Shown: piece by piece, positions 32,304-37,380 of the stretch
How the letters are laid out: each line of letters begins with the position of its first letter
Numbering within the stretch: the first letter of the stretch is position 1
Assembly (NCBI GenBank): GCA_016181145.1
Contig: JACOZW010000053.1
Location: 1-37,380, forward strand
Reading direction: 5' to 3'
Origin: Candidatus Yanofskyibacteriota bacterium
GTDB lineage: Bacteria; Patescibacteriota; Minisyncoccia; 2-02-FULL-40-12; GWA2-44-9
Length of the DNA: 37,380 bases
Program-made: the position numbers and the translations under genes
The notes under the pieces: generated by a model
The model's database searches: none
Told to the model about the DNA's origin: nothing
Seen by the model: the letters and a program-made list of their open reading frames with translations, nothing else

Positions 32304-33619
32304 GTGAGTATTGAATCAAAAACAGAGCAGGTCGTGAAAGAAAAACGAGATCGGTTTGATGAGTTTATGCGTACGAGGCACGAAGGCGCGATTGCCGGTT
32401 TAAAAGTGGAAGAAGCTTTGTCATATATTGATAGTTCAGTTAAACAAGATGATTACCCGAAACTTATGAGTCCTGAAAATATTACTATCAGAAAAAAGGC
32501 CGAGGAAATCATTGAGGAACTTTTTCAAGACAGATATCCGTTAAAGAAAGAGGAGGTTCGGACCGCTATTGAAAGATATCTTTTTGCGAAAGTTAGGGCC
32601 GATAGATTTCAAATTGAATTAGGGAACCAACTTGACGAAAGAGGTATACGAAAATCCGGTCCCGAGGCCGGGGGATATCTTTTTAAAGAAGAAACCGGCA
32701 GAGAACCAGTAGGAAGAATAAACCTTTATAAAGAAGGAGGATATATAAAATTAACTTTTTACGATCGCAGAGACTATTTTGACTTTCGAGGTATTGAGGA
32801 AGACGAAAGCGGAGGGTGTTTTTATCAGTCCTTGTATTTTCCGGGTTTGGGTGAAGTGGCTTTTATTTTAGAGCCATGGAGTTCGGAGAATTATCAGAGC
32901 GATACAAATCAGCACGAAAGACAGCATTTTATAAACAATTCTCTCCTCAGCAAATTTGAAGGATTGGAAGGGGTCACCTTTACTGATGCCCAGAAAGCTT
33001 ATCCAAAAGAATATCCAATTCTTTCAGAAGCAATCAGGCGTGCTGACAGTAGGGTGGATATCTTTATGCAGTCAGTGAAAGATGAACTATTAGCATGTGT
33101 AAAAGACGGTCGATCTTTGTCGGGTGTAACGAAATTTTGGGATTTAAATCTTTACGATTTTTTAAGAGAAGGCTCAACCTTGGAGGAACAACAGGAAGTA
33201 GGATCTTTACTTGGAAAGATAAAGGAAGAACTGGAGAAAGGGTCAGGTCTTTTTGAGGGTGGTAAACAGGCAAGAGGATTACTTGTTTATCACCTTATTG
33301 ATATACCCTTTATGCGATTTCCGGAAAGAGTTGCGGCGGTTATTAAATTTTACAAAAAAAGAATGGACAGAGTATTGAAACATCTTCCTGAAGCGCTGAA
33401 GAAAGACATTACTAAATGGCCGGAAAAAGACCGTCTTGAAGAATTAAGTAGAGATATGATAGGGGAACTTATTCAGCTAACGTTTATGCTCTTGGATTGG
33501 CTGGAGATAATCTTGATGAACAAGATGATGAGCTTGTTAAAATTGAAAACAAACTGCGCCAACTGAGAGCAGAATACAATCAGCTTTTAAGCGACGCTCT
33601 CAAGAATAATTATAAATAA
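32304..33619 (+). CDS. Putative HExxH metallopeptidase with an apparent -1 frameshift near 33462-33466
   Basis: HERQHFINN motif; frame-0 ORF stops at 33566 but another frame continues as GTYSANVYALGLAGDNLDEQDDELVKIENKLRQLRAEYNQLLSDALKNNYK* ending in TAATG overlap with map. Confidence 0.65.
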
Positions 33620-34362
33620 TGATAATTAAATTCAAAACGCAAAAAGAAATAGAAACAATGAAAGAAGGTGGCAAAATATTGGCGGAGATATTGAAAAAGT
33701 TATCAGACATGGTAAGACCAGGAATAACCACCAATGATTTGGAAAAGCTCGCGCAGGAGCTTGTTTTGTCTTTTGGAGTCAAGCCGTCGTTCTTGGGCTA
33801 CGATGGATATCCGGCTGTTTTGTGCACTTCGATCAACGACGAGATAGTCCACGGCGTACCATCGGACAGAATTTTGAAAGACGGGGATATCTTGAAGTTA
33901 GATATGGGAGTTTTGTACGAAGGTTTTCACACTGACTCGGCAGTGACAATTTTATTGGGTGGTGGGGACGACCAGAAAAAGAAACTCATTAATGTCACCA
34001 AAGAAGCATTGAGAATTGGCATATCAAAAGCAAGAGTTGGCAATACTCTTGGCGACATCGGTTATGCAATTCAAAAGTATGTTGAAGACAACGGATTTAA
34101 TGTGGTCAGGGATTTGGTTGGCCATGGAATTGGCAGAGAACTTCACGAACCGCCGCAGGTATTAAACTACGGGGAAAAGGGGACTGGCCCTGAGCTTGTC
34201 GAAGGGATGGTTATTGCGATAGAACCGATGGTGGTAACAGGCGGTTGGAAAATTAAGAACAGCAAGGACGGTTTCGGCTTTGTCACTAAAGACGGCGGCC
34301 TTGCCGCCCACTTTGAACACACGGTAGCGATTACGGAAGAAAGACCGCTTGTATTAACCTAA
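33619..34362 (+). CDS. map: Methionine aminopeptidase, type I
   Basis: TQKEIETMKEGGKILAEIL, GHGIGRELHEPPQVLNYG, AIEPMVV. Confidence 0.96.
   Translation: MIIKFKTQKEIETMKEGGKILAEILKKLSDMVRPGITTNDLEKLAQELVLSFGVKPSFLGYDGYPAVLCTSINDEIVHGVPSDRILKDGDILKLDMGVLYEGFHTDSAVTILLGGGDDQKKKLINVTKEALRIGISKARVGNTLGDIGYAIQKYVEDNGFNVVRDLVGHGIGRELHEPPQVLNYGEKGTGPELVEGMVIAIEPMVVTGGWKIKNSKDGFGFVTKDGGLAAHFEHTVAITEERPLVLT
34188..34206 (+). repeat. Palindromic repeat ccctgagcttgtcgaaggg in map (GPELVEGMV)
   Basis: Near reverse complement of the nrdJ copy at 5503-5521 (one difference). Confidence 0.6.
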
Positions 34363-34394
34363 TAATTCTAATCCACAGTTTGCAAACAAGCCCA

Positions 34395-34424
34395 TTGACA
34401 TGCTCAACGGGCTTTTGATATACT
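34395..34424 (+). promoter_or_regulatory. rRNA promoter TTGACA-N18-TATACT
   Basis: -35 34395-34400, -10 34419-34424. Confidence 0.7.
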
Positions 34425-34472
34425 AATGGACAATAGAAATGAGTATAACTTTCAACAAAACATTAGGCGGAT

Positions 34473-34521
34473 GATACCAGCTATTTTTAGCGTGTATCTG
34501 GGCCGCCGTTGGGCGGTTTTT
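34473..34521 (+). promoter_or_regulatory. Attenuator/terminator-like leader or small RNA
   Basis: gatac..gcta/tagc..gtatc hairpin followed by ccgcc-gttg-ggcgg-ttttt. Confidence 0.5.
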
Positions 34522-34668
34522 CATTTCTAAGCATCTTAACAATTTACGGGTAAAAAATTGTATTAATAAAATTAGGCAATTTCAGCAAAATGATTGTAGC
34601 TAAACCACAGCCCTTTAAATGCCTACGGCATTCTAAAAGGCTGGGTCAGCATTCTTAATCAATCGCTT

Positions 34669-34680
34669 TGCTCTTGAAAG
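34669..34680 (+). promoter_or_regulatory. boxA-like antitermination motif tgctcttgaaag
   Basis: Similar to boxA TGCTCTTTAACA. Confidence 0.4.
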
Positions 34681-35094
34681 AATCCTGATTTTATATCGAA
34701 ATCATCTTGAACTGGTCGCAAGACCGGTTCTAAAAATTACTCATTAAGCAAGGGCGTATGGAGGATGCCTTGACATTAAGAGGCGATGAAGGTCGTGGCG
34801 TGACTGCGATAAGCTTCGGGGAGCCGTCTAGCGGGCGAAGTGAAACATCTCAGTAGCCGAAGGAAGAGAAATAGCATAGATTCCGTAAGTAGCGGCGAGC
34901 GAAAGCGGAACAGCCTAAACCCGTTGTTGAATTAGTTTACTAACTCAATGATGGGGGTAATAGGGAAGAACACTGAAATTCGTTTATCGTGGAGCCTGAA
35001 GCGTGAATCGTTAAAAATGTTTCACGTTTCAAGTTTCACGTTTCGAGTTTTCTAAAGAGTTACAAAATTGAACCCAGCATATCAACCTCGAAAA

Positions 35095-35130
35095 AGGATT
35101 GATTGCTGAGTTCGCTCAGCAATCAATCCT
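35095..35130 (+). repeat. Perfect 16-bp hairpin with TTCG loop within a 23S domain I expansion
   Basis: aggattgattgctgag-ttcg-ctcagcaatcaatcct. Confidence 0.85.
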
Positions 35131-35249
35131 AAATTGCTAACAGCAGTTCGAGGTTGTATTACTGGGTGAAAGTTAGCAAAATGGCCTTGGAATAGCCAAC
35201 CAAAGAAGGTGACAGTCCTGTAAGCAAAAATTTTCAATCTCTTGTTCTA

Positions 35250-35295
35250 AGATAATCAGTCAAAAACTTTTTAAAAAGTTTTTGACTGATTATCT
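35250..35295 (+). repeat. 46-nt perfect palindrome within 23S
   Basis: agataatcagtcaaaaacttttt|aaaaagtttttgactgattatct. Confidence 0.85.
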
Positions 35296-35588
35296 CCCCT
35301 GAGTAGCCCGGGATAAGAATGTCCTGGGTGAATTTGCCCATACTACTGGGTAAGGCTAAATACTCTTAATGATCGATAGTGAACCAGTACCGTGAGGGAA
35401 AGGTGAAAAGCACCCCGGTGAGGGGAGTGAAATAGTAACTGAAACCATATGCCTACAAAGAGCCGGAGTCCCGCCTAGGCGGGATGACGGTGTGCCTATT
35501 GAAGAATGACCCAACGAGTTTATCTAAATGACGTGTCTAAGCCGCTATGCGGCGCAGGCGTAGGGAAACCGAGTGTTAAAAGCGCGTC

Positions 35589-35864
35589 ATCCAACTCAAA
35601 TTTTTGGACTTAAAAAGCCTCATCCAGAGGCTAGGAACAAAGAAAGAAAAAGAATCTCTTATTAGACCATGGAGCAAGCATATAATATGTCAGTAATCCT
35701 GATCCTAATGTGCTATTAACAATTTGGTAAGGATAAAAGTTGTTTGGCTCAGCACTTATTTTAACAGCCATTAGCTTAGCGCCTCCAGAAGACCAAATAG
35801 TGTACTTATGCTAAGGTAACATATTAATAATAATTAGTCAAGAGTTCAAAAATTTGAGTTGGAT
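35589..35864 (+). other. 23S intervening-sequence-like insertion, ORF-less (about 240-nt insert)
   Basis: 18-bp perfect terminal inverted repeat atccaactcaaatttttg(35589-35606)/caaaaatttgagttggat(35847-35864) separating conserved 23S segments. Confidence 0.75.
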
Positions 35865-36141
35865 ATGTCGTTTGGATAAGACCCGAAGCCAGAGCGAGCT
35901 AACCATGACCAGGGTGAAGTTCGGCGAAAGCCGAATGGAGGCCCGAACCGATAGATAGCGCAACATCTCCGGATGAGTTGTGGTTAGAAGTGAAAAGCTT
36001 ATCGAGCCTGGTAATAGCTGGTTCTCCCCGAAATCGAAATGCCTTTAGGGGCAGCGGCTAGAAAATATCACGGGGGTAGAGCACTGAATGGTTTCTCGTG
36101 CCCTTTTGGGTAGAGTCACCAAACAAACTCCGAATACCGTG

Positions 36142-36298
36142 GTACCCCCAATTATGGCAATTTTCGTAGCGAAAATTAAAAATTTTTTGCAGAGCAAGGC
36201 GAAATTTTAAGACATACTGGCGTATGTTGAAAAATTTTAACGAAGCTATGCTAAAAATTTTCAGTTTGCAGTAGAAAAGTTGCCATAGTTGGGGGTAC
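36142..36298 (+). other. 23S insertion bounded by 19-bp inverted repeat
   Basis: gtacccccaattatggcaa / ttgccatagttgggggtac. Confidence 0.75.
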
Positions 36299-36610
36299 TA
36301 GCCAGTGAGTACGCGAGGGCAAAGCTTCGTGTACGCGAGGGAAAGAGCCCAGATCACCGCTTAAGGTCCCAAAATGTAAACTAAGTGACAAGGAAGTATT
36401 TAGCGTGGATTTGTTAAATTTTAATTTAACAAGTGGTAGGGGAGCATTTCCAACTGCTGTGAAGCCCTTCTGTGAAGATCAGGGTGGAGCGTTGGGAAGG
36501 GAGAATGTTGGGATGAGTAACCGCAAGTCCGGTGAAAGACCGGACCGCCGTAAGTCCAAGGTTTCCTCCGCGATGGCAATCATCGGAGGGTTAGGCGTTC
36601 CTAAGCGTAA

Positions 36611-36911
36611 CCCCGCTCTTTCTGATTAGTATCTCTTGTGGTATATAGCACATATGTATTATGTCTATGTTCTCAAGAAAAATAACTCCAAACTTCTTTA
36701 TTTTGGATATACCAAAAATTTGGAACAAAGAAATCGTAGTCATAGACATGACAGAAGAAACGACTATGAACTTGTGTATTATGAAGCATTCAAAAATAAA
36801 GAAGATGCAGAACAAAGAGAAAAAGATTTAAAGAATTTTGGTTCAGGGTACGGACATTTAAAGAAAAGAATTAAAAGAAGTTTGGAATAGTAATAATTAG
36901 AAAGAGCGGGG
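36611..36911 (+). other. 23S IVS-like insertion encoding a GIY-YIG endonuclease
   Basis: ccccgctctttctgatta(36611-36628)/taattagaaagagcgggg(36894-36911) 18-bp stem with one G-U; ORF inside. Confidence 0.8.
36654..36890 (+). CDS. GIY-YIG domain endonuclease inside 23S rRNA
   Basis: MYYVYVLKKNNSKLLYFGYTKNLEQRNRSH...ELVYYEAFKNKEDAEQREKDLKNFGSGYGHLKKRI. Confidence 0.85.
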   Translation: MYYVYVLKKNNSKLLYFGYTKNLEQRNRSHRHDRRNDYELVYYEAFKNKEDAEQREKDLKNFGSGYGHLKKRIKRSLE

Positions 36912-37380
36912 GATCGCGATGGACAGCCGGTTAATATTCCGGCCCCGTTTATATGTCGATGGAATGACGGACTACATAAGATTGAGCGCATTATTGGATT
37001 TGACGTCTTTGCCGATAGAATAGGAATCAGGTAAATCCGGTTCCAGCCGCAAGGCATATTCGAAGGCAGAAGAGATCGCCGCAAGGCGAGATTCAATTGA
37101 AGAGTGTTCCAAGAAAAATTCCTAGAATTATCATATAAGCGAACGTACCGCAAATCCGAAACAGGTGGACTGGTGTGATTGCACCAAGGCGAACGGGTGA
37201 TTATTGGCTAAGGAACTCGGCAAAAAAGTGGCCGTAACTTCGGAATAAGGCCTGCCACGCGCAAGCGTGGCCGCAGCTAAAGACCCCTTGGCGACTGTTT
37301 ATCAAAAACACAACTCCGTGCTAAGCCGAAAGGCGATGTATACGGGGTGACGCTTGTCCGGTGCCGGAACGTTAACGGTG

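Follow-up and report, generated by a model that had tools for sequence, protein, structure and literature searches.

The GTPase-associated centre missing from the 23S rRNA gene of a metagenome-assembled CPR bacterium is most likely a local assembly error

Metagenome-assembled genomes are known to contain local assembly errors. Thirteen of them were counted in the uncurated version of one genome of the Candidate Phyla Radiation (CPR), and IDBA-UD assemblies are suspected to be the most prone to such errors (Chen et al., PMC7111523). The rRNA genes of CPR bacteria are also described to carry insertions (PMC11270868), and other CPR helices have been reported to be shortened, with H42 not mentioned in the text of that report (PMC12641178). 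Our literature searches found no report of the loss of the GTPase-associated centre (GAC) in CPR bacteria.

The DNA analysed here (the window) is a complete contig of 37,380 bp (C20), which belongs to a genome of 951,685 bp in 68 contigs that is 92% complete. The GAC is missing from its 23S rRNA gene. The case resembles the documented errors of metagenome-assembled genomes in that the gap is found in one genome, in a stretch identical across species and in a fragmented bin; the proof in those cases was the lack of perfect read support, whereas the gap described here is known from the assembled sequence (PMC7111523). The window gene also carries insertions of the kind described for CPR rRNA genes (at 36139-36300, and with a GIY-YIG ORF). 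Those are gains of sequence, whereas the GAC gap would be the loss of a core helix (PMC11270868).

The covariance model of bacterial 23S rRNA (RF02541) matched positions 34738-37380 of the window with 883 bits, and the gene is recognisable in its other parts up to model position 1885. This was the only 23S piece in the genome. The features of the region are as follows.

33619-34362, + strand: map (type I methionyl aminopeptidase), in the secY-adk-map-23S order common to relatives
34738-37380, + strand: 5' two-thirds of the 23S rRNA gene (RF02541 positions 1-1885), cut off by the end of the contig
36139-36300, + strand: long insertion with an inverted repeat, located upstream of the gap and also present in G008
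36353-36363 (approximate), + strand: 5' strand (UCAC.GCU) of the outer helix closing the H41-H45 region, intact in the covariance alignment
36374-36401, + strand: orphaned 5' strands of H41 (TGTAAACTAAGTG) and H42 (AAGGAAGTATTT), with their 3' partners missing
36396-36405, + strand: junction GTATTT/AGCG, at which about 115-138 nt are gone (inner H42, H43, H44 and the 3' strands of H42 and H41)
36402-36408, + strand: 3' strand (AGCGTGG) of the outer helix, intact in the covariance alignment
36409-36433, + strand: H45 hairpin (ATTTGTTAAATTTTAATTTAACAAGT), intact; an insertion site in relatives
36636-36890, + strand: GIY-YIG nuclease ORF (84 aa, PF01541) inside a 23S insertion
37334-37380, + strand: stretch identical in many relatives, inside which the contig ends

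The order secY-adk-map-23S was identical in G002, G014 and G018 and partly seen in G006 and G008, which indicates that the window 23S is the resident gene. In the family of the source genome the 23S follows secY-adk-map (33619-37380 in the window) and is unlinked from 16S; where relatives have a 16S, it is located away from the 23S. We rejected a chimeric join of the contig upstream of the 23S, given this conserved order and given that both sides of the gap were nearest to the same family, often to the same genus.

Counted from motif AAGGTCCC to motif GGTAGGGGAGC, the interval measures 88 nt in the window (36361-36448). The same interval spans 203-226 nt in insert-free relatives (224 in G006, 226 in G014, 226 in G032, 206 in G052 and 203 in G046), so about 115-138 nt are missing. 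Between 36280 and 36620, RF02541 positions 960-1408 (449 positions) were covered by only 341 nt, and the inner part of H41 and H42-H44 were skipped, while the equivalent region of G006 aligned in full to the model. The missing block in the covariance alignment is thus the inner part of H41 plus H42-H44, i.e. the GAC. The original prediction, made from the letters of the window, had suggested that this segment was absent, that roughly 130 nt were lost and that the segment lay nowhere else in the window; all three were confirmed by the alignment to RF02541 and close relatives that it had proposed and by our searches. The motif it had quoted as ctaaggtcccaaa reads cttaaggtcccaaa in the window (36360 on).

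Comparison with relatives placed the breakpoints at AAGGAAGTATTT / AGCGTGGATTTG, where no more than 1-3 nt are shared, and in the joined text AAGGAAGTATTT is directly followed by AGCGTGG. The outer closing helix UCAC.GCU/AGC.GUGG keeps 7 of its 7 pairs. As assembled, the gene has no intact GAC (H42-H44) joined through H41, and the loss is not a clean removal of whole helices: only the 5' strands of H41 and of H42, a helix that covaries strongly in relatives, are left as orphans. No GAC was detected elsewhere in the window, even when the covariance model was run with filters off. Neither a motif search nor a GAC covariance model built from 23 relatives gave a match in the 92%-complete genome, and a relocated GAC was rejected on this result. 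The same model matched 34 other genomes with E of 6e-20 or better.

A normal GAC was present in all 29 of the relative 23S loci that contain the stretch. The pattern of a GAC-less 23S was found in 1 of 28 genomes of the family and 1 of 384 of the class, each time in the source genome alone; many bins have no 23S at all, and a zero in a genome does not always mean a normal GAC. A scan of 84,980 species with this pattern, which requires exact flanking motifs and is not exhaustive, gave three matches. Halovivax asiaticus was a false positive in which the GAC is present. Isolated GAC-gapped 23S genes were observed in a draft scaffold of P. putida W15Oct28 (L044) and in an Ignavibacteria metagenome-assembled genome (L045). 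Both resemble the source genome in having an isolated H42-H44 gap in a draft; the breakpoints differ in each, the gap is without shared ancestry, and these two are probably assembly errors too. A search of viral contigs for the flank gave no match. Judged from these sequences, the missing GAC is not a lineage trait.

Stretches identical between species confuse short-read assemblers. The lost block lies within sequence common word for word to several species: it holds a 67-nt run of which each 25-mer occurs in at least 5 relatives, the longest between-genera run in the 5' half of the gene. A further shared run occupies 37334-37379, and the contig stops where this run stops. It is highly probable, in our view, that a local assembly error removed the GAC from the single, otherwise normal 23S gene of a CPR-type metagenome-assembled bacterium. 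Misassembly had been named as the main alternative to a true loss, and it is now the best reading, since no relative shares the gap and the site coincides with assembly-tangling sequence. Many related species have H42-H44 sequences that agree exactly over tens of bases, so that short reads from there would be common to several genomes. The assembler was probably unable to thread this stretch and would have joined its two flanks, and the contig would then have stopped altogether at the next such stretch, at 37380. The source was presumably a short-read metagenome of a CPR bacterium, whose reads would carry the missing piece of the GAC; the small genome, the insertions in the rRNA and the relatives are in keeping with such a source.

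Not all observations fit an assembly error equally well. Other shared stretches, e.g. 35370-35468, were assembled normally, and the location of the gap in a shared stretch is support for an assembly error, not proof of it. At the junction there are neither Ns nor long flanking repeats, which counts against such an error; a plain k-mer collapse therefore cannot account for the junction, and either a gap closed wrongly or a chimeric read would be needed. The right-hand breakpoint, at the base of an intact helix, counts against it too, as a real deletion might also end there.

It is improbable that the gap is a real, very recent deletion in some of the cells, or lies in a second, non-functional 23S copy, with a normal 23S serving the cell. 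The clean junction and the otherwise well conserved flanks are as expected of a recent event, and the bin is incomplete (neither 16S nor the 3' half of the 23S is in the assembly), so another copy could be missing. However, the gene order points to the resident 23S, and both the first search and the GAC model put the 23S of almost all relatives, among them the one-contig genome G014, at a single site; G050 is a possible exception with two. The source genome itself, in which a second rrl copy had been suggested as a check, contains one 23S only. Of the 731 sites that are constant across all other relatives, 6 differ in the window 23S, which is mid-range among relatives, and none of the 129 invariant sites in the 5' flank just upstream of the gap is changed. 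There is thus no excess of change at invariant sites as in an rRNA pseudogene. A dead copy is unlikely on the gene order and these counts, and the non-functional rRNA copy originally offered as an explanation became a weak one. From the sequence around it, the deletion does not look like an evolved one.

A working ribosome truly without the GAC, in which a short stub or loop replaces H42-H44 and uL11 (with a shortened N-terminus), uL10 and bL12 are held by other contacts, is very unlikely. The joined sequence can fold a small CUAAGUG/UAUUUAG hairpin, and the outer helix and H45 are intact, all of which would speak for such a ribosome. The hairpin is at chance level, however, and was rejected as a replacement (z = -0.93; about 55% of simulated joins equal it). 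A further point in favour is that uL11 is short by about 7 N-terminal residues (L080:1345-1400), its ATG lying right beside an AT-rich inverted repeat in the nusG-rplK interval. We treated this as a coincidence or another local irregularity, with the RNA-binding domain untouched. Against a ribosome without the GAC, uL11 (rplK), uL10 and bL12 are all encoded in the source genome, without the loss or decay that an evolved GAC loss would bring. The uL11 passes the NCBIfam cut-off for L11, and its C-terminal rRNA-binding domain, known to bind the GAC, is complete and constrained (dN 0.09-0.18, within the range of other relatives, with synonymous change saturated). EF-G and EF-Tu in the window are ordinary. 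The rest of the translation machinery is not consistent with GAC loss, and the orphan half-helices are still conserved. The claim of a 23S truly without the GAC is therefore not supported: no relative shares this state, the GAC-binding proteins are kept, and H41 and H42 are halved.

Some bacteria and organelles do have split rRNAs, and about 8% of the genome lies outside the assembly, but a GAC encoded elsewhere as a separate piece of a split or permuted rRNA is hardly credible, since the assembled ~92% of the genome encodes no such piece by covariance model (with filters off in the window) or motif search and the GAC is split in no relative.

The 23S genes of this group contain several insertions. 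Sequence similar to the insertion at 36139-36300 was observed as fragments outside the 23S in G016, G028, G037 and G044. In three relatives, the H45 insertion beside the gap site holds a complete tRNA gene inside the 23S.

L020:1722-1795, - strand: tRNA-Cys (GCA) nested in the 23S H45 insertion of G005
L022:1296-1371, + strand: tRNA-Met (CAT) nested in the 23S H45 insertion of G018
L025:1373-1445, + strand: tRNA-Arg (CCG) nested in the 23S H45 insertion of G011

These tRNA-bearing insertions are bounded by a stem like GGTGATTTCATAAAGGA/TCCTTTATGAAACCACC, and the nested tRNA-Cys of G005 is the only tRNA-Cys match in that genome by BLAST. The word tRNA is absent from the text of the paper on CPR rRNA insertions (PMC11270868). 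At L015, L024, L029, L032 and L033, similar H45 insertions end in a stem of this kind (GATTTC...AAGG); ARAGORN detected no tRNA in them, and some look tRNA-like or degenerate. The GAC can host insertions as well: the H42-H44 region of G056 contains one that apparently codes for a GIY-YIG-like protein (L042, reverse strand from about 1011).

If true, the loss of the GAC would overturn the view that bacterial ribosomes cannot do without it. Read as an artefact, the gap is a warning that metagenome assemblies without curation can lose precisely the best-conserved parts of an rRNA without any sign of it, and that such gaps should be screened for when rRNA loss is surveyed; our pattern survey gave only two other cases, both of them drafts. 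The GAC gap is most likely not a real biological feature. An ordinary GAC is most likely present in the living organism, where it would bind uL11 and, beside uL10 and bL12, activate EF-Tu and EF-G.
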